NCBI RefSeq assembly: GCF_001701045.1
Contig: NZ_CP016757.1
Span: 186,001-250,000, forward strand
From: Cloacibacillus porcorum
GTDB taxonomy: Bacteria; Synergistota; Synergistia; Synergistales; Synergistaceae
Direction: 5' to 3'
DNA: 64,000 bases
Both the position numbers and the translations under genes were made by a program. The notes below the pieces were generated by a model that worked only from the letters and a program-made list of their open reading frames with translations, made no database searches and had not been told where the DNA came from. This document shows, piece by piece, positions 11,396 to 21,849 of the stretch. Positions within the stretch are counted from its first letter, which is position 1, and each line of letters opens with the position of its first letter.

Positions 11396-12280
11396 AAAAC
11401 AATGAAATGGTCATGGAAGGTCTGCTTGCAGAGCGCGGAGAAAGAAAATCAATGGTATATATTTTAGTGGGGACGGACTAGATTATAAAAGAGTGCCGGC
11501 TAATGAAATAAATAACGGATACAGCCTTACCTACGGCTTTGAACAACCCCGTTGCCAAAGTTTTTTGAAACAGCGGCGGCGATACCTCTTGAATCTATTA
11601 GCTCAAAATCGCCGTCGATTTTGAGTTGATATACGCTTCAATGTCAGAATACCCTTAAAATAGACAGAACGATATAAAAAATCCGATTCGTTTACCAGAA
11701 GTTCCAAAGCGATCCTATTCTCCTAGGTCGCGCCAGCGGCAAAAACGGCGATGTATGTTTTTCCAGTCACCATAATACGGCAGCAAATCACGCCATGGTC
11801 CATATTTATCATATTTTCTAGTCTGTTCTGGAACGATCTATCCTGGGGTTCTTCCGTCGCCTCTGGTTTCATTATCTTAGTTTTCTCTCAATAATTGCAG
11901 ATTTTCTACGTATATTTTTCCTCATTATTTTTTTGTAAAGCCTTGATATCACCAGATTGTAGTGTCAAAACCATCAAAATTGGGAATAACACTGGCACAA
12001 TAGTGGGCCTGTCGTCTTTAAGACGGTGGGGATGTCTCTGACGGAACAGCTGTGCATCGTTAGTGGAACGATGGTCCTATTGAGGAAAATATCCATCTCT
12101 GACCCCGCATACCGTAGCACATAGCCCAATGATTATGATGCCTTCAAGCTTGTGGCGTATATTATATTGCCATAGCTTGTTCGCTATGGCAATGTGATAT
12201 TCTGGGCTTTTTTCTTTTAACGTTTTTATTTTTAGCCTTACAGTTTCTCGCTAACCACATAAAAAGCAAATACTATTATT
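11396..12280. other. gene-poor A/T-rich spacer with IS remnant and hairpin
   Basis: About 1.1 kb without an intact gene separates the glycosyltransferase from the selenoprotein cluster. It contains a dead IS5-type fragment (11697-11870) and a hairpin ATTGCCATAGC / GCTATGGCAAT at 12166-12193. Base composition drops sharply from the preceding genes, suggesting an old insertion boundary. Confidence 0.7.
11697..11870 (-). pseudogene. IS5-family transposase N-terminal remnant
   Basis: Minus-strand translation gives KYGPWRDLLPYYGDWKNIHR followed by RFCRWRDLGE, a stop, then DRFGTS. This is the conserved N-terminal domain of IS5/IS1031-type transposases, where Trp normally stands at the stop. Another stop lies upstream after GRTPG. 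No start codon, downstream catalytic domain or clear terminal repeats remain. Confidence 0.8.
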
Positions 12281-12281
12281 G

Positions 12282-12309
12282 GGACATTAGTCCTATGGGA
12301 CATCAGTCC
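12282..12309 (+). promoter_or_regulatory. tandem dyad GGAC-N4-GTCC, candidate operator
   Basis: GGACATTAGTCC is repeated as GGACATCAGTCC, start to start 16 bases, ending eight bases before the -35 box. Two phased dyads next to a promoter look like a binding site for a dimeric activator or repressor. The regulator is unknown. Confidence 0.6.
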
Positions 12310-12316
12310 ACATAAA

Positions 12317-12345
12317 TTGACAGTTCCTTAATTCTGTTTTAAAAT
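12317..12345 (+). promoter_or_regulatory. promoter of the UGSC selenoprotein cluster
   Basis: TTGACA, a 17-base spacer, TAAAAT. It leads into a 160-base leader that contains a short ORF with its own AGGAGG and a separate dyad at 12440-12475. Confidence 0.8.
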
Positions 12346-12439
12346 GACACCATCTCAAGGATACATGGTAGTGAACAAAAAGCTGAACTCCTGCAGGACT
12401 TCGAAAGGAGGTAGTGGGTGTCGAAGGGGAAAGCTTAAA

Positions 12440-12475
12440 ATTTAGTAACAGAAATAATGAATCTTGTTACTAAAT
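12440..12475. promoter_or_regulatory. inverted repeat in the leader of the selenoprotein gene
   Basis: Perfect 11-base arms ATTTAGTAACA and TGTTACTAAAT separated by 14 bases, ending 17 bases before the ribosome-binding site AAGGAGG. It could be an RNA hairpin or an operator for a dimeric regulator. Confidence 0.6.
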
Positions 12476-12506
12476 GTGTTATTGATACTTCAAGGAGGTA
12501 TAAGGA

Positions 12507-14225
12507 ATGTCAGTGGAAAAAGCTCAGAATGTCTCAATGACAATAGTGAATCCTGTGGCTAAAGTCGAATCAAAGACTATAACGCCAGCGGCTAGCTTGA
12601 CTAGCCTTGAAGGAAAGAAGATAGCGTTATGGTGGAATGGCAAGGCGAAAGGCGACATAGCATTAAAAACAATAGCGGCTCGCTTGAAAAAAGAGTATAA
12701 CGTTGAGACCGAATTATTTACTCAGGGCTGGCCTCATGGTGATGAAGTATACGATAGAGTAATTGCGGCGGAGTGCCAAGCGGCCATCGCTACCACAGGA
12801 GACTGAGGATCGTGCACAGCATGGCTTACGCGTGACGTAAGTTCCCTAGAAAAACTTGGTATTCCCACCGTAGGAATTGTAGCCAAAGGATTTTTGCCGA
12901 TTAATGCATCGGAATTCAAAACCAGAGGATTACTGAGAGCACGCAGAGCGGTAATGCCTCATCCTTTCACCGAGATGCCGGAGGAAGAAGTTGCTCAGAC
13001 CGGCGAGGCGCTCTATGACGCCGTAGTTTACGGTTTGACTCATGAAGGCGAGCTCCTCTTTCCGCCGAAGAAAAAAGCCGGCGAGGCCGCCGCGTCAGAC
13101 AAGCCGGTAAAAGAAGTTCCTCTGGAACATCAGGTTGAACCGGAGCGTATAACCATCGAGGGATCAGATTATTTTGATTGGGGCTACAACCTCAACCATT
13201 ATTTCCTTAACCACGGCTGGGGAGACGGATTCCCGATAGTTCCTCCCACCGAGGAAGCTGTTAACCGCATGCTGACTGGCACGAAACGTGACCGTAATGA
13301 AGTTATCCTTAAAATGCAGCCTGGCATGGGGTTGGCCACAGTAGAAAAAATTGCAGCCAACTGCGTCATGGCCGGCTGCGAACCCGCACACCTGCCTATA
13401 ATGATATCTATAATTGAAGCTATGGATGTAGAGGAGTTTGTTTTGACCATCCTGGCCCAGTCCACCGGTGCTCACGCCCCCATACTTCTTGTAAACGGAC
13501 CTATTGCCAAACAGATAGGGATGAACAGCGGAGCATGCTGTTTTGGTCCTGGCAAAGATTCGGCGGCAAATACGGCAATCGGAAGAGCAGTGCGCCTCTG
13601 CATGATGAATATCGGCTTTACATACGCCCGTATACGCGATATGGATACGATCGGCTCTCCGATCAAATACAGTTTCTGCGCAGCTGAAAATGAGGCTGAA
13701 AACCCATGGGAACCCTTCAGCGTCGAAAAGGGATTCAAGCCTGGTCAGAATTGCGTTACGGCAATTCCGTGCCAGTCGCTCATGGAAATAGAGGACATGG
13801 AGAGCGACACGCCGGAAACTCTTCTTCGTACCTTCGCTTCCTCAATAGACTCAATGGGCTGGCTCGGTGCGCGTTCATGGCTGGGCTACGTAACACCTCC
13901 GCGTATGAAGGTGGCATTGCTTCTTGCTCCTGACCACGCCAGAATGATTGCCAACGCAGGTTGGTCAAAGTTCGACGTCAAGCAGTATCTCTACGCTAAG
14001 TGCCGCCGTAAGTGGGGGCAGTTCAAACATCAGGTTATCCCGCGCATCGAAAGCAAGATTGTACTTCCCGGATACAGATGGCTAATCAATGCATCGGATG
14101 ATACGATGGTTCCGATGGTAAGAGACTTCGGCTATTTTGACATCGCGGTAGTCGGCGGAGCTGCCGGAAAGTCAGCTGTGAGCCTTGGCCTCGGTTGGCC
14201 CATAACGAAAGAAATTAAGGATTAA
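12507..14225 (+). CDS. UGSC-family selenoprotein (in-frame UGA at 12804-12806)
   Basis: 572-aa protein read through an in-frame TGA at codon 100. The context is TTGD-U-GSCTAW, the U-G-S-C motif. The downstream frame continues without a break to TAA, and the paralogue at 18107-19789 aligns along its whole length with Cys at this position. An N-terminal Rossmann-like region (KKIALWWNGKAKGD) precedes the redox motif. A large C-terminal domain follows with YFLNHGWGDGFPIVPPTEEA and NCVMAGCEPAH. Sec and the following Cys probably form a selenenyl-sulfide redox pair; the substrate is unknown. RBS AAGGAGG. First gene of the SDR/TRAP cluster. Confidence 0.92.
12804..12843 (+). other. candidate bacterial SECIS hairpin
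   Basis: Directly after the UGA, CTTACG (12825-12830), a five-base loop CGTGA and CGTAAG (12836-12841) form a stem extendable by G-U pairs. It lies 18 bases past the UGA, the distance expected for SelB-recognised hairpins inside the coding region. No such hairpin is needed in the Cys paralogue. Confidence 0.75.
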
Positions 14226-14406: not shown

Positions 14407-15174
14407 ATGAACTTGAAATTAGCTGGTAAAGTCGCTGTGGTTTCAGGCGCAGGAGCGGGCATAGGAAAAGCAGCCGCCTGCCTTTATGCCAAGAACGGCG
14501 CAAAGGTTGTAGTGGCAGTAAGGACACTCAGCAAAGGCGAAGAGACGGTAAAGCTGATTAAAGAAGCGGGTGGAGAGGCCATTCTTGTCCATACAGATGT
14601 GTCTAAGCTCACGGATTTGCAGGATATGATAAAGACAGCGGTGGAAAGCTACGGGAGGCTGGATATACTCTTCAGCAATGCTGGCGTGCCGGGCCCCGGA
14701 GGTCTGGATGAAGTTACTGAAGAGGGATGGGATCAGACAGTTGCCGTGAACCTGAGGAGTTGTTTCTTCAGCGCGAAGTACGCTGTCGAGGAAATGAGAA
14801 AGACAGGCGGCGGCGCGATTGTTTTCGATTCCTCAATTGCCGGAAAAGTCGGCTCTCCCATGAGCCCAGTATATTCTGCAACGAAGGGCGGCATAGTTAC
14901 CCTGACAAAATCTTTGGCTCTCTTGCTGGCGCCGGACAATATCAGAGTTAATTGCGTCTGCCCCGGTCCTATTGATACGAAATTTGTTCGTCAGGCATGG
15001 GATCGCGCACCGGATCCGGATGCCGCTCGTCTCTGCAATGTCAGCGGCGTTGCTCTTGGACGTATGGGCTCTCCTGAGGAAGTGGCTAATGCTGTCCTAT
15101 TCCTATCTTCAGATGAGTCTTCTTATGTCACAGGTACGGCTATGGCTGTAGACGGAGGGTATCTTGCTCGTTAG
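14407..15174 (+). CDS. SDR-family NAD(P)-dependent dehydrogenase
   Basis: 255-aa classical short-chain dehydrogenase/reductase. It has the cofactor loop GAGAGIGKAA near residues 14-23, SNAGVPG near 88, the catalytic Ser in FDSSIAG, and YSATKGG (Tyr-x-x-x-Lys) near 157-161. The C-terminal SDESSYVTGTAMAVDGGY is the usual family end. It probably oxidises or reduces a hydroxyl/keto substrate brought in by the adjacent TRAP system. AAAGGGG precedes ATG 14407. Substrate unknown. Confidence 0.93.
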   Translation: MNLKLAGKVAVVSGAGAGIGKAAACLYAKNGAKVVVAVRTLSKGEETVKLIKEAGGEAILVHTDVSKLTDLQDMIKTAVESYGRLDILFSNAGVPGPGGLDEVTEEGWDQTVAVNLRSCFFSAKYAVEEMRKTGGGAIVFDSSIAGKVGSPMSPVYSATKGGIVTLTKSLALLLAPDNIRVNCVCPGPIDTKFVRQAWDRAPDPDAARLCNVSGVALGRMGSPEEVANAVLFLSSDESSYVTGTAMAVDGGYLAR

Positions 15175-15238: not shown

Positions 15239-16219
15239 ATGAAAAAATCTTTCGTGCTCTTTTTGACGTTTGTGCTGTCATTAGCCTTTACGGCTTCCGC
15301 TTTCGCCGCGGGCGCTACCGTTTTAAAGGCAGGTCACAGCGCAACCAACAAGGAACCATACCAGCTTGGTCTCGAAGCTTTCGGTAAAAAACTGAAGGAA
15401 ACGACAAACGGCAAGTTTGAGGTTAAGGTCTTCCCGAGCTGCCAGCTTGGAAGCGAAAAGGAAATGACCGAAGGCCTCTTCCTTGGCAACGTTGACATTG
15501 CTACCTCAGCAACAACGGTGGTAACGAATTTCATTCCGGAGTTCATCGTCTACGACCTTCCCTTCCTCTTCAACAGCGATAAGCATTTCTACGAAGCTTC
15601 TGACGGCGCGCCCGGAAAATTCTTTGTAGACGCCTGCGCGAAGAAGGGCATTCGCCTTTTGGCTATCTACGACGCCGGAGTTCGTCACATCGCGTCCAAA
15701 AAGCCCGTCAACAGCATGAAGGATCTGAAAGGGATGAAGATCAGAACTATGCAGTCCCAAATTCATATCGACGCCTTTAACGGATTCGGTGCGAAAGCGA
15801 CTCCTATGGCCTTCAGCGAACAGTTCAGCGCTCTTGAGCAGGGAGTCATTGACGGAGTCGAAGCTTCAAACACCAGCTGCTACAACCAGCAGTTCTACCG
15901 TCCCGCTCCCAACTGGGCTCTCGTTAGCTGGTACCGCTGCGTCACAGCTATGATGATGTCTGAGAAGAAGTTCCAGTCCTATCCGAAGGATGTCCAGAAG
16001 GCTATTCTGGAAGCTGCCGCTTACTCAGCGAAGGTTGAACGCGAGGCCTATGCAAAGAGCGAAAGCGCCAGCCTGGATGCTATGAAAAAGGCCGGAGTCA
16101 ACATCACGAAGCCTGATGTGGCGCCCTTCAAAGAGGTTGCCCAGAAAGTTGCGGATAAGTATATAAAGAAGCCCGAGCTTAAAGAGGTTCTGAAGCAGAT
16201 CCAAGATATGGGTAAATAA
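15239..16219 (+). CDS. dctP: TRAP transporter substrate-binding protein (DctP family)
   Basis: 326-aa periplasmic receptor. The signal peptide (MKKSFVLFLTFVLSLAFTAS) has cleavage near AFA-AG. Family motifs include KAGHSATNKEPYQLG at the N-terminus, LKGMKIRTMQSQIH with the arginine that usually clamps the substrate carboxylate, and EQFSALEQGVIDGVE. The conserved Arg suggests an organic acid ligand, though this is family inference. It starts the DctP-DctQ-DctM module and lies between the two UGSC genes. Confidence 0.95.
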   Translation: MKKSFVLFLTFVLSLAFTASAFAAGATVLKAGHSATNKEPYQLGLEAFGKKLKETTNGKFEVKVFPSCQLGSEKEMTEGLFLGNVDIATSATTVVTNFIPEFIVYDLPFLFNSDKHFYEASDGAPGKFFVDACAKKGIRLLAIYDAGVRHIASKKPVNSMKDLKGMKIRTMQSQIHIDAFNGFGAKATPMAFSEQFSALEQGVIDGVEASNTSCYNQQFYRPAPNWALVSWYRCVTAMMMSEKKFQSYPKDVQKAILEAAAYSAKVEREAYAKSESASLDAMKKAGVNITKPDVAPFKEVAQKVADKYIKKPELKEVLKQIQDMGK

Positions 16220-16228
16220 TCATCTAAG

Positions 16229-16729
16229 ATGATAAATACACTTGAGAAAATTCTTAAAGTCTGTAGGCTGATTGCCAAGACTGGAATAGTAATCACATTA
16301 TCTTACATGGTAATAGCGATACTTCTTCAGATCTTAGGCCGTTACCTGCCGAACGATATGGATATTTCATGGACCGAAGAAAGCGCCAGATTCGCTCAGT
16401 TATGGATGGTTTTCTTTGGAGCCGGAGTCGCGATGCAGCGCAACCTGCATGTCGGCGTTGACGTCCTTACAGGCGTGCTTAAGGGCACAAGTAAAAAAAT
16501 TCTCGTTGTGCTTTGCGGAATATTTGCCGTTGTATTCCTCGTTGTCGCCATATACGGCAGTTTTGATCTGATCGCCGTCGGCGGCTTACAGATATCCGCG
16601 GCGCTGAACATGCCGATGAGCTATGTATATTTCATAATACCCATCGGGCTGTTCTATTGGCTGATTGAATATGTTGTCTTTAACGCGAAACAGCTAAAAT
16701 CAACGACAGATTCGGAGGCGAAAGAATAA
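16229..16729 (+). CDS. dctQ: TRAP transporter small permease (DctQ)
   Basis: 166-aa inner-membrane subunit with four hydrophobic helices and the family segment DISWTEESARFAQLWMVFFG near residues 50-70. It follows dctP by nine bases, and its stop overlaps the ATG of dctM (TAATG), as usual in tripartite TRAP operons. Confidence 0.93.
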   Translation: MINTLEKILKVCRLIAKTGIVITLSYMVIAILLQILGRYLPNDMDISWTEESARFAQLWMVFFGAGVAMQRNLHVGVDVLTGVLKGTSKKILVVLCGIFAVVFLVVAIYGSFDLIAVGGLQISAALNMPMSYVYFIIPIGLFYWLIEYVVFNAKQLKSTTDSEAKE

Positions 16730-18015
16730 TGTTAGCTCTAATATTTATTCTTTTCGTAGTGGCTATTTTCAGCGGTACGCCGATCGTTTTTGCAATCGGA
16801 ACTGTTTCGGCCGCATTCTTGTATCTCATGGATATTCCGATGAATACGATTGCGATACGCATGATGGCGGGCCTCGACAGCTTCCCCCTGATGGCTATTC
16901 CATTTTTTGTCCTTGCTGGACAGCTTATGGACAGGGGAGGAATTGCACGGCGCATTATTGACTGGACAAGCGCGGTTGTCGGATGGGTAACTGGCAGTCT
17001 TCTCCTGATGACTGTTCTGGCCGGAGCCGGATTTGCGGCAATAACCGGTTCGGGGTCAGCATCCACCGCGGCTCTTTCTTCAATAATACTGCCGGAAATT
17101 CGCAAACGCGGATATGACGTTGATTTCACTGCCGTTATGCTCGCAGCCGGCGGCCTTCTGGGACCGATCATTCCTCCGAGCCTTTTCATGGTGGTTTTGG
17201 CGACCTGTTCACCGATCACGGTCTCTGTGAAGGATCTCTTTATGGGAGGAGTCATACCTGGCATTCTGATGTGCATTGCCATGATGATTTATGCATACCG
17301 TTTTGCCAAGACGCACGGCTCAGCCTACCGCGAGGATAAGCCATTCTCATGGAAAGATGTAATTAAATCTACCATTAATGCTCTGCCCGGGTTCTTAATG
17401 CCGGTCATAGTCGTCGGCGGCATCGTTACAGGAGCCTTTACGGCAACGGAATCAGCCGCCATGGCAGTTTTCGTCGGCCTTGTAGTAGGACTCTTCATCT
17501 ACAGGGAACTAAAATGGTCGGATATTCCTAATATCCTTGTAGATACCGGAGCTATTACAGCAGGTATCATGGTTATTTGCGGAATGGCAAGCGTATTTTC
17601 ATGGCTGATCTCGATCAACAATATGCCGGAGCTCGTGGGCAATTTTATGACCAATTTCTCCAGTTCAAAAATTGTCTTCCTGCTTGTAGTCAATATCTTC
17701 CTGTTGATTGTCGGTTGTTTCATGGAGACCGTCTCGGCTCTTCTGATCCTGATTCCGGTAATAATGCCGATAGCTGTCAACAGCTATGGAATCGACCCTG
17801 TGCATTTTGCCGTAATCGTTGTTATTAACCTTGCAATAGGAACGTTTACGCCTCCATACGGCATCTGCCTCTACGTTGCCGCGGCAATAGCCGGTCGTAC
17901 GATTAAGCAGGTAATGAAGTATGTCTGGGTCCCGATTGCGATATATGTCGGCGCGCTCCTTGTATTTACCTATGTTCCCCAGATTGTGCTTTTCCTGCCG
18001 AACATGGTTAAATAA
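16729..18015 (+). CDS. dctM: TRAP transporter large permease (DctM)
   Basis: 428-aa, 11-13 helix membrane protein forming the sodium-coupled translocation path. Landmarks are FPLMAIPFFVLAGQLMDRGG, AAGGLLGPIIPPSLFMV and NLAIGTFTPPYGICLYV, repeated Gly/Pro-rich hairpins of the ion-transporter superfamily. The length is normal. It completes the transporter with dctP and dctQ. Confidence 0.95.
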   Translation: MLALIFILFVVAIFSGTPIVFAIGTVSAAFLYLMDIPMNTIAIRMMAGLDSFPLMAIPFFVLAGQLMDRGGIARRIIDWTSAVVGWVTGSLLLMTVLAGAGFAAITGSGSASTAALSSIILPEIRKRGYDVDFTAVMLAAGGLLGPIIPPSLFMVVLATCSPITVSVKDLFMGGVIPGILMCIAMMIYAYRFAKTHGSAYREDKPFSWKDVIKSTINALPGFLMPVIVVGGIVTGAFTATESAAMAVFVGLVVGLFIYRELKWSDIPNILVDTGAITAGIMVICGMASVFSWLISINNMPELVGNFMTNFSSSKIVFLLVVNIFLLIVGCFMETVSALLILIPVIMPIAVNSYGIDPVHFAVIVVINLAIGTFTPPYGICLYVAAAIAGRTIKQVMKYVWVPIAIYVGALLVFTYVPQIVLFLPNMVK

Positions 18016-18106: not shown

Positions 18107-19789
18107 ATGTCAACGGAAAAATTCTCAGCGACAGTAATGAATCCTGTTGCTAAGGTCGAGACAGAGGCTGCTATAACGCCTGCGGCTAGACTGACTTGCC
18201 TGGAAGGTAAGAAAATAGCCTTATGGTGGAATGGCAAGTCAAAAGGCAACGTTGCATTAAACACAATAGCTGAACGCCTGAAAAAGGACTATAATGCTGA
18301 GACAGTGTTTTTTAAACAGGATTTGTTCCACAGCGAAGAGGCCTTCGCTGCCGTGACAGATGCCGGCTGTGCAGCGGTAGTTGCCGCCACGGCAGATTGT
18401 GGCTCAAGCGCAGTTACGCTTACGCGCGACCTGTGCGCCCTTGAAAAAATGGGCGTCCCCACTGTAATGCTTATAGCTAAACCCTTCTTGCTGATAAGCA
18501 ATGCCGAACTGCGCCTCAAAGGGCTCTTTAAAGTCAGCAGAGCAGTAATGGAGCATCCTCTCAACTCACTGCCTGAAGAAGAGGCTGCCCAGGTTGCAGA
18601 TGCTCTCTATGACGCAGTGGTTAAGGGGCTTACTCAGGACGGCGAAGCCTTGGATACGCCTGAGGCGGAAGCTGCAAGGCCCATCGAGGAAAAAGCAGAG
18701 CCTGAGCGTATAACAATTGAGGGAGAAAATTACTTTGATTTCAGCACAAACCTCAATCGTTATTTCATTAACCACGGTTGGAGCGATGGTCTCCCCTTAG
18801 TTCCTCCGACAGAGGCGGCAGTTAACCGTATGCTCTCCGGCACGAAACGCGGACGCGATGAAGTGCTTCTTAAATATCAGCCCGGCAACGGAGTCGCGAC
18901 CATTGAAAAGATTGCGGTCAACTGCGTCATGGCGGGATGCGAGCCTTCGCATCTTCCTGTTGTTGCAGCCGCAATCGAAGCAATGCACAAAGATGGATTC
19001 AACATTACCAGTCTGACACAGTCATCCGGCGCAGATACACCGATGGTGATGGTAAACGGACCTATCGCCAAAGAGATAGGAATGACGGCTGAAGGCGCCT
19101 GCCTTGGCCCCGGCAAATATTCAGCTGTCAATACCGCAATCGGAAGAGCGGTACGTCTTACGATGATGAATATCGGGCATTGCTATCCCAGTATCCGCGA
19201 CATTGACACACTCGGTTCGCCTAACAAATACGCGCTCTGTGCCTGCGAAAACGAGGATGACAACCCCTTCAACGAGCCGTACAATGTTGAAAAGGGATTC
19301 AAGCCCGGAACGAACTGTGTCACGACGATGCCCTGTCAGTCATTTATGGACGTTGAGGACCTCGAAAGCGGCAGACCTGAAGACCTCCTTATGACTATTG
19401 CCTGCACAATAGACACTATGGGATGGCCCGGCGCGCGCAGCTGGATGGGGTTCATCGATCCCAACGTCATGCATGTAACTGTCATCTTTGCGCCTGACCA
19501 TGCCAGGCTGATTACCAACAGTGGCTGGACCAAATTCGACGTTAGACAGTACCTCTATGCAAAGTGCCGCCGTGCCTGGGGGCAGTTCAAACATCTGGTT
19601 ATCCCACGTATTAAAGACGGTACCGTACACCCCGGTTACAGATGGCTTGCCACAGCATCGGATGACACAGAAGTTCCGATGGTAAGAGACCCAAGCTACT
19701 TCGATATCGCGGTTATCGGCGGGGCTGCCGGAAAGTCAGCTCTCTCCATGAACATCGGATGCCCGACAACAGTGGAGATAAAGAAGTAG
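18107..19789 (+). CDS. UGSC-family protein, cysteine form (paralogue of 12507-14225)
   Basis: 560-aa homologue of the selenoprotein, colinear throughout. At the Sec position it has Cys98 in TADCGSS. The second redox Cys of U-G-S-C is replaced by Ser, so this copy has a lone thiol and cannot form the same intramolecular pair. The C-terminal domain (NHGWSDGLPLVPPTEAA and NCVMAGCEPSH) is conserved. It may be a partner subunit or a non-redox paralogue rather than a simple Sec-free backup. GAGGAGG precedes the ATG. It directly follows dctM. Confidence 0.88.
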   Translation: MSTEKFSATVMNPVAKVETEAAITPAARLTCLEGKKIALWWNGKSKGNVALNTIAERLKKDYNAETVFFKQDLFHSEEAFAAVTDAGCAAVVAATADCGSSAVTLTRDLCALEKMGVPTVMLIAKPFLLISNAELRLKGLFKVSRAVMEHPLNSLPEEEAAQVADALYDAVVKGLTQDGEALDTPEAEAARPIEEKAEPERITIEGENYFDFSTNLNRYFINHGWSDGLPLVPPTEAAVNRMLSGTKRGRDEVLLKYQPGNGVATIEKIAVNCVMAGCEPSHLPVVAAAIEAMHKDGFNITSLTQSSGADTPMVMVNGPIAKEIGMTAEGACLGPGKYSAVNTAIGRAVRLTMMNIGHCYPSIRDIDTLGSPNKYALCACENEDDNPFNEPYNVEKGFKPGTNCVTTMPCQSFMDVEDLESGRPEDLLMTIACTIDTMGWPGARSWMGFIDPNVMHVTVIFAPDHARLITNSGWTKFDVRQYLYAKCRRAWGQFKHLVIPRIKDGTVHPGYRWLATASDDTEVPMVRDPSYFDIAVIGGAAGKSALSMNIGCPTTVEIKK

Positions 19790-19802: not shown

Positions 19803-19878
19803 AATAACATGGTCACTTGCCGTGTGCCTGTCATTGAACTGTGCCCTGCAAAAGGCAAGTTGACCATGTTATTTTTGC
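19803..19878 (+). terminator. terminator after the Cys-type UGSC gene
   Basis: AATAACATGGTcACTTGCC pairs with GGCAAGTtgACCATGTTATT and is followed by TTTTT. It separates the transporter/UGSC unit from the NifU-like gene. Confidence 0.85.
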
Positions 19879-19934
19879 TGTATCGAGAATCATTTAAATT
19901 TCTAATTGCTTTTGACTTCTCTGAAGGAGGAATA

Positions 19935-20195
19935 ATGGTGGTAGATAAGGAAGTAGTAAAGAGCGCATTAGAGCCGCTCGAAGAGAGTTTCGCATCAGAT
20001 GGTTCCAAAATTGAGATTAGCTCAATTGAAGGCAACACAGTTAATATTAAAATTGTAGTTTTCCCCGGCGGCTGCCGCGAGTGCATCCTTCCTGCCGACT
20101 ACCTTGAGGAAATGTTTAAGAACAATATAGAAGAAGAGGCAGAGGAAGAGGTTCAGGTACACGTTGAAATAGAAGACCACTCTAAAGAACATTAA
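19935..20195 (+). CDS. NifU C-terminal-domain-like small protein
   Basis: 86-aa cytoplasmic protein resembling the NifU C-terminal (Nfu) domain: VKSALEPLEESFASDG, a beta region, then GGCRECILP with the Cys-x-x-Cys that carries an iron-sulfur cluster in Nfu proteins. The acidic C-terminus is not typical. Start ATG 19935 follows GGAGG. The position suggests cluster delivery or a redox/selenium role for the UGSC proteins; this is inference. Stand-alone Nfu domains are otherwise general Fe-S carriers. Confidence 0.75.
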   Translation: MVVDKEVVKSALEPLEESFASDGSKIEISSIEGNTVNIKIVVFPGGCRECILPADYLEEMFKNNIEEEAEEEVQVHVEIEDHSKEH

Positions 20196-20445: not shown

Positions 20446-21849
20446 ATGGAATCTGAAAAATGGGTCATCAAGAACGGCACCATCGTCAATCCTGAATATG
20501 GTGAAATTAAAGCTGACATTAAAATTGAAAACGGGATTGTTACCGCAATCGGAAGAGGCCTTTGTGAGGAAGGCTGTAAGGTGTATGACGCAGCTGATAA
20601 ATATTTGTTCCCGGGGTTTATAGATACTCATGTTCATCTGGGGAATTTTAATTCCTTTGAAGACGACTGCCGCTCTGAAACGATATCAGCCGCGGCAGGC
20701 GGAGTTACGACTGTATGCCAGATGGCAAAAGCTTCAAAACTTACGAAATTTAGGCCGCCCCAGACCAGCTACCATGAAGTTCTGGATGAAATAACAGACA
20801 TAATTGACAATAATTCTTCAGTTGACATCGCCTTGCATCTTAACTTAAGCTCTTATGAACAGATAGATGAAATAGCCTCCTATGCGGAGCTCGGCCATAC
20901 CTCATTCAAGTTCTTCATGAGCTACGTAGGTATGGAGGGGGCTATTAAAATGGGGGCTATCGGAGTAAGAGACGGCATTATATATGCCGCCTTAAACAAA
21001 GTTTCCGAAGTGCCCGGCACATTGGCGATTGTACACTGTGAAAATGACGACCTTATTGAATTTTTCCAGAGATCTATGACGGAAAAAGATAAAGAAAATA
21101 TATCCTTTTCAGATTTTGCTAAGAGCCGCCCCTCTATAGCGGAAGCGGAAAATATACACAGACTGCTATATTACGCCGCTGAAACGGGGGCAACAGTCTA
21201 TGTGCCGCACGTATCTTCCATAAAAGCCATAAACGTTGTGAAAGAAGCGCGTAAAAACAGCGGCGTGAAGGTATTCGTAGAAACCTGTCCCCAATACCTT
21301 GTACTGACTCACGAAGAGGCAAATAAAATGCCCGGAGCAATTGCTAAGGTTACCCCAACAATGCGGAACCGGGAAACATTGGATTATTTGTGGGAATGCA
21401 TTAAAGATGGAACTATAAATACCATTGGAACAGACCATTGTTCTCTGGGCCTCGACAAAAAGAAAAGTGTATGGTACAGCCCTGGCGGTTTTCCTGGAAT
21501 TGAAACTATAGCTCCTTTAATTATTACCGAAGCAAGAAAAAGAGGTATTTCTTTACAAAGAGTTTCGCAAATTCTTTCTTACAATGCGGCGAAAATTTTT
21601 GGGATGTTGCCTAGAAAAGGGACTCTTCGAATTGGAGCCGATGCAGATATTGCAATTTTAGACTTAAACAAAGAAGTTACAATTAAAGCTGAAAACCTTC
21701 ATTCCTCAAGTACATTTACTCCCTATGAAGGTTTTAAAACAAAGGCTTATGTTGAAGCAACTTTCTTACGTGGGGATCTAATATGGAGAGACGGTGATTT
21801 ACTCAAGGCAAAGACAGGTAAAACGGTATTAAGAAAGCCGCTAGAATAA
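20446..21849 (+). CDS. dihydropyrimidinase/hydantoinase-like amidohydrolase
   Basis: 467-aa cyclic-amide hydrolase of the D-hydantoinase/dihydropyrimidinase/allantoinase group. Metal ligands are visible: His62 and His64 in DTHVHLG, the lysine expected to be carbamylated (Lys155 in TSFKFFMSY), His197 (VHCEND), His255 (VPHVSS) and Asp in GTDHCS. It would open a five- or six-membered cyclic amide (hydantoin-like) to an N-carbamoyl acid. It lies downstream of the UGSC/TRAP genes with its own leader, so its substrate may be what the TRAP system imports. Slightly longer N-carbamoyl processing genes are absent locally. Confidence 0.88.
   Translation: MESEKWVIKNGTIVNPEYGEIKADIKIENGIVTAIGRGLCEEGCKVYDAADKYLFPGFIDTHVHLGNFNSFEDDCRSETISAAAGGVTTVCQMAKASKLTKFRPPQTSYHEVLDEITDIIDNNSSVDIALHLNLSSYEQIDEIASYAELGHTSFKFFMSYVGMEGAIKMGAIGVRDGIIYAALNKVSEVPGTLAIVHCENDDLIEFFQRSMTEKDKENISFSDFAKSRPSIAEAENIHRLLYYAAETGATVYVPHVSSIKAINVVKEARKNSGVKVFVETCPQYLVLTHEEANKMPGAIAKVTPTMRNRETLDYLWECIKDGTINTIGTDHCSLGLDKKKSVWYSPGGFPGIETIAPLIITEARKRGISLQRVSQILSYNAAKIFGMLPRKGTLRIGADADIAILDLNKEVTIKAENLHSSSTFTPYEGFKTKAYVEATFLRGDLIWRDGDLLKAKTGKTVLRKPLE

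Follow-up and report, generated by a model that had tools for sequence, protein, structure and literature searches.

A UGSC selenoprotein of Cloacibacillus porcorum and the relationship of its catalytic domain to GrdB and PrdB

The window analysed here (64,000 nucleotides of the genome of the gut bacterium Cloacibacillus porcorum, contig NZ_CP016757.1, positions 186,001 to 250,000) contains a long reading frame with an in-frame TGA, and this locus raises two questions: is the TGA read as selenocysteine (Sec) and, if so, what kind of reaction might the encoded protein carry out? The UGSC proteins, with which this gene product is classified below, count among the abundant selenoprotein families of aquatic metagenomes, and we know of no chemistry proposed for them beyond "probably redox, Trx-like". 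The analysis indicates that the gene encodes a genuine selenoprotein of an already known family and architecture (Table 1); what is new is the relationship of its catalytic domain to GrdB and PrdB and the reductase hypothesis.

Table 1. Features of the UGSC locus; coordinates are those of the window.
Feature	Coordinates	Strand	Description or basis
Promoter-like -35/-10, TTGACA-17-TAAAAT	12317..12345	+	11/12 consensus matches; consensus only
Shine-Dalgarno AGGAGG	12493..12498	+	8 nt 5' of ATG; read in sequence
Selenoprotein gene	12507..14225	+	572 aa, Sec at residue 100; UGSC domain and C-terminal domain, probably 'Unknown_1'
UGSC domain, PF24696	12507..13061	+	residues 13-178; by profile comparison, homologous to C-terminal half of GrdB/PrdB
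TGA, almost certainly read as Sec (U100 of U-G-S-C)	12804..12806	+	in-frame; ortholog comparison
TGC, Cys103, second (putative resolving) cysteine of U-G-S-C	12813..12815	+	sequence and alignment
Candidate bSECIS hairpin	12823..12843	+	8 bp, loop CGTGA; weak on its own
C-terminal domain (probably 'Unknown_1')	13122..14222	+	invariant MAGC Cys291; no Pfam/NCBIfam family
SDR oxidoreductase, between the paralogues	14407..15174	+	profile match
TRAP solute-binding protein DctP	15239..16219	+	profile match
TRAP small permease DctQ	16229..16729	+	profile match
TRAP large permease DctM	16729..18015	+	profile match
Paralogue, C-G-S-S	18107..19789	+	Cys98, second Cys lost; 62% identity to selenoprotein
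Small NifU-C-terminal-like protein, possible last cluster gene	19809..20195	+	25.9 bits, just below cut-off 27

The TGA is the only one among the 572 codons of the frame. An earlier note on this DNA had described the frame as open on either side of the TGA and expected automatic calling to split the gene, and both observations hold: homology spans both flanks of the codon, which rules out chance as the source of the frame, and the standard ORF list breaks the gene into 12507-12806 and 12894-14225. Upstream, 1.1 kb (11396-12506) is devoid of ORFs of at least 90 aa and contains inverted repeats at 11596-11631 and 12159-12200. A search of the whole window with Rfam at the gathering threshold produced no match, and a codon-usage scan of the window for additional recoded TGAs missed the known site itself and was discarded.

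Standard gene callers terminate the ORF at this TGA and, were it a true stop or a nonsense mutation, the product would consist of 99 residues and the second half of the gene would be dead. We regard this as highly improbable. The ortholog from another genus (Synergistes sp. MAG Tb.RUG.71), which is 88% identical to the window gene, has TGA at the same codon although 43% of the fourfold-degenerate sites (identity 0.565) and 34% of the codons of unchanged residues differ between the two. Amino-acid identity is 82% before the TGA and 84-92% after it; over residues 221-572, it amounts to 92%, against 59% identity at fourfold sites. By this comparison, both halves around the TGA are under amino-acid constraint. 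The conservation of the TGA despite such divergence, together with the constrained second half, excludes a dead second half, and its presence in the independently obtained ortholog makes a sequencing error very unlikely, which answers the concern that resequencing might reveal TGC or TGT. Distant copies on plasmids of Acidovorax and Paracoccus also have TGA at the same position, whereas the paralogue in the window has Cys at this codon; in a 13-row tree, Sec occurs at two separate places, and the Cys paralogue is the sister of the Sec pair. The sel genes, for which the earlier note had proposed a search, are all present in the same genome, namely selA (562 bits), selB (380 bits), tRNA-Sec/selC (77 bits) and selD (321 bits), the last of which itself has a TGA. 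For C. porcorum CL-84, 18 known selenoprotein genes have been reported (PMC12013277). Thus, comparison of the orthologs and genome content indicate that the TGA is almost certainly decoded as Sec by SelA/SelB/SelC/SelD, and the selenoprotein interpretation is further supported by the match to the UGSC model discussed below.

In the bSECIS model, a hairpin whose loop has a G near its start is located 16-37 nt after the UGA. The geometry of the candidate hairpin agrees with this model: the core CTTACG-CGTGA-CGTAAG starts at 12825, 18 nt past the TGA, two flanking G-U pairs extend the stem, and the loop begins 24 nt past the TGA and has a G at position 2. Equal or better stability was reached in 12.5% of synonymous resamples of the window gene and in 3.5% of those of the Synergistes sp. 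ortholog; the Acidovorax and Paracoccus genes have stronger hairpins (0.2% and 2.4%, respectively) and the Cys paralogue a weaker one (8.5%). The only hairpin change with respect to the Synergistes sp. ortholog converts a G-U pair to G-C, and codons 101-115 conserve 8 of their 9 fourfold sites, compared to 56% overall. These results are consistent with the Sec reading, which the hairpin supports without proving it; the hairpin noticed earlier is there, and the evidence that it provides is modest. Taken by itself, it could have arisen by chance.

With regard to family membership, the selenoprotein matches PF24696 with 110.3 bits (Pfam cut-off 25) and the equivalog model NF041046 with 93.7 bits, below the cut-off of 125; hence it belongs to UGSC according to Pfam and not according to the equivalog model, so that the assignment suggested in the earlier note stands at the broader level. 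The UGSC family and the UGSC/'Unknown_1' fusion were published in 2008 (PMC2398784), and the window gene resembles the published selenoproteins in the domain itself, the U-G-S-C motif and the fusion to a C-terminal domain with a conserved Cys. In contrast to the published fusion, it adjoins genes for an SDR, a TRAP transporter and a CGSS paralogue and misses the NF041046 cut-off.

The C-terminal domain (~350 residues), for which no family was matched in Pfam or NCBIfam, has other invariant positions besides the MAGC Cys and is kept in haloarchaea, Actinomycetota, Pseudomonadota and Bacillota, where it is either fused to UGSC or encoded by an adjacent gene. We infer that this domain is the published 'Unknown_1' (PMC2398784). 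Homology to GrdE was considered and rejected (probability 0.08%, in a comparison where a few GrdE rows were possibly misoriented). Sequence searches of the PDB, run with the UGSC and C-terminal profiles as well as with the whole protein and a GrdB, yielded no credible match.

The relationships of the UGSC domain itself are much clearer at the profile level. In hhalign, the UGSC and GrdB profiles align with a score of 80.6 (E 3.7e-11), compared to at most 17.8 for 30 column-shuffled GrdB profiles, and the score is still 59.8 when the U-G-S-C motif is masked. Single sequences compared with the UGSC profile score 42-58 (GrdB), 43 (PrdB) and 15 (thioredoxin), and the hhalign comparison of UGSC with one thioredoxin gave a probability of 0.64%, i.e., no match. 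When NCBIfam models were run on 14 UGSC proteins, the GrdB model TIGR01917 matched seven, the GrdF model four and the PrdB model three; the GrdH model picks up UGSC members as well, and wherever positions were printed, the matches to these four models fall at the Sec region. In the phylum search, weak UGSC matches with TGA were detected in other genomes; one of these (locus L024) turns out to be GrdB when read through, and the regions around three others (L072, L073 and L075) likewise contain GrdB-type Sec genes. The hhalign and NCBIfam matches, taken together, identify the UGSC domain, within the reach of profile comparison, as a divergent GrdB/PrdB-type catalytic domain and not an evident thioredoxin. 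The catalytic half of the selenoprotein is thus distantly related to the selenium enzymes degrading glycine and proline. PrdB is known to be homologous to GrdB (PMC13188914). The UGSC-GrdB link was not found in the part of the literature naming UGSC that we covered, and may have been noted elsewhere. Descent of UGSC from the Asp/Glu-racemase superfamily was also considered and found no support in Pfam.

The shared features are localized around the catalytic residue. Over ~100 aligned residues, UGSC shares with the protein B components of glycine, sarcosine and betaine reductases (GrdB/GrdF/GrdH) a Sec-G-[ST]-C motif that closes a predicted strand and, after it, the motifs LE..GIPxV and HP(F/L). 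Unlike GrdB, the UGSC protein lacks the N-terminal two thirds, has UxxC instead of UxxCxxC and is not accompanied by an adjoining gene for a GrdE partner, so full membership in the GrdB family was rejected. D-proline reductase PrdB (TIGR04483), a GrdB homologue, resembles UGSC in being a short Sec-bearing subunit with UGxC, although the UGSC protein has no PrdA partner and is fused to an unrelated domain. The fluoroacetate reductase FarB/FarE, from the same species, uses its Sec, as GrdB does, to attack a small carboxylate (PMC10838667) but is a true GrdB/GrdE pair with a radical SAM protein and contains no UGSC/Unknown_1. The genome has nine GrdB-family and eight GrdE-family matches (e.g., locus L047), none of which lies within the window (186001-250000). 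The Pfam GRDB model (347 positions) stops at the Sec codon and lacks the catalytic half, probably because the annotated proteins are truncated at that codon.

In the window, the SDR gene and the complete TRAP transporter are flanked by the two UGSC genes, and SDR genes are also found in the neighbourhoods of several relatives (e.g., L036, L103, L104). TRAP/TTT carboxylate transporter genes are present in 9 of 15 plasmid neighbourhoods of relatives, which were picked by similarity, not at random, and include one without annotation; a thioredoxin-reductase-like gene occurs in 5 of the 15, with thioredoxin itself in Arthrobacter. The few controls, four 50-kb stretches of the same plasmids (200 kb, ~13 neighbourhood equivalents), hold a single TTT gene, and none of their annotated genes is a thioredoxin reductase; for TRAP/TTT genes, the difference is significant (Fisher p 0.006), subject to the small number of controls and the selection of relatives by similarity. 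Downstream of the cluster is a gene for a hydantoinase/dihydropyrimidinase-like amidohydrolase (20446-21849), and genes for amidohydrolases or DUF6282 proteins adjoin UGSC in haloarchaea (L030, L038, L041).

The kinship with GrdB/PrdB and the thioredoxin-reductase and carboxylate-transporter neighbours lead to a specific, testable reductase hypothesis for UGSC. As the best explanation of the whole, with a probability of roughly 0.55, we propose that the UGSC selenoprotein is a stand-alone reductase of the PrdB type that binds a carboxylate through its C-terminal domain and is re-reduced by thioredoxin, the reductase chemistry being deduced from these relationships. Under this scheme, the fused C-terminal domain would bind and polarise the substrate, a small carboxylate or a hydroxy or keto acid that plausibly enters through the TRAP transporter whose genes lie between the two paralogues; Sec100 would attack the bound substrate as a nucleophile, Cys103 would resolve the intermediate with formation of a Se-S bond, and thioredoxin/thioredoxin reductase would restore the reduced protein. 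The enzyme would thus work like D-proline reductase, as a stand-alone unit without GrdE. More tentatively, and with somewhat less than even chances, UGSC might represent a third branch of GrdB/PrdB selenoenzymes that is fed by thioredoxin, has its own activating domain (Unknown_1), is independent of GrdA/GrdC/GrdE and acts on imported carboxylates; its Sec and Cys forms would have passed between anaerobes, aerobes and haloarchaea by transfer, plasmids included. Since the paralogue has no resolving Cys, and the Sporomusa and Vibrio members described below have neither Sec nor Cys, part of the family may follow a different chemistry or a non-redox one.

Two other readings of the protein have to be weighed against this scheme. 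A Trx-like fold was judged likely for UGSC (Zhang and Gladyshev, 2008; PMC2398784), and the family has been placed among Trx-fold proteins (PMC13188914); combined with the TrxB/TrxA neighbours, this would fit a thiol/selenol oxidoreductase of thioredoxin fold whose role is to hand electrons on to the C-terminal domain, the latter being the actual enzyme. Given that the profile strongly matches GrdB and PrdB and fails to match the one thioredoxin compared, and that there are members without any Cys or Sec at the motif, we consider this unlikely. The other reading concerns the paralogue, which the earlier note described as a Cys paralogue. It does align throughout, over 572 residues, with TGT (18398-18400) at the position of the TGA, but it is not a simple Cys version: in its C-G-S-S motif, the nucleophile position is Cys and the second, resolving Cys is replaced by Ser. 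High similarity over the full length and location in one gene cluster would be compatible with selenium-regulated isozymes, the Cys copy substituting when selenium is scarce, and such a division of labour would not conflict with the PrdB-like reductase. However, without the second Cys, this copy is no like-for-like substitute, and a different specificity or a role as a heteromeric partner is as likely, so that the isozyme scenario appears doubtful. In any case, Sec and CGSS copies side by side in one cultured organism offer a natural comparison.

Within Synergistota, the UGSC/C-terminal-domain pair was found in only 2 of 185 genomes, and a search of one other species of the genus detected no copy; this rarity suggests that the pair was likely gained by transfer. 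In the Synergistes sp. genome, the genes upstream of the ortholog differ from those in the window, and the contig ends downstream of the gene. Viral contigs that were searched contained no relatives.

On plasmid p2-T1 of Acidovorax sp. T1 (NZ_CP021650.1; L031, 6992-8650), the UGSC fusion, which has an in-frame TGA, appears in the annotation only as a hypothetical protein of 96 aa, and the remaining 1.4 kb has no listed gene, the gene table of this plasmid being incomplete. On plasmid pFER4 of Paracoccus ferrooxidans (CP038202.1; L036, 6390-8047), the annotation lists two short hypothetical ORFs in place of the TGA-containing UGSC gene, and selB is encoded on the same plasmid, ~3.3 kb downstream of the gene for the C-terminal domain. 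A separate branch of UGSC fusions, found in Sporomusa termitida (L032, 6980-8704) and Vibrio europaeus (L034, 6737-8422), carries D-M-G-T-S at the site of the redox motif and is possibly non-redox in function; the genes of this branch adjoin those for aconitase X and DUF126 proteins.
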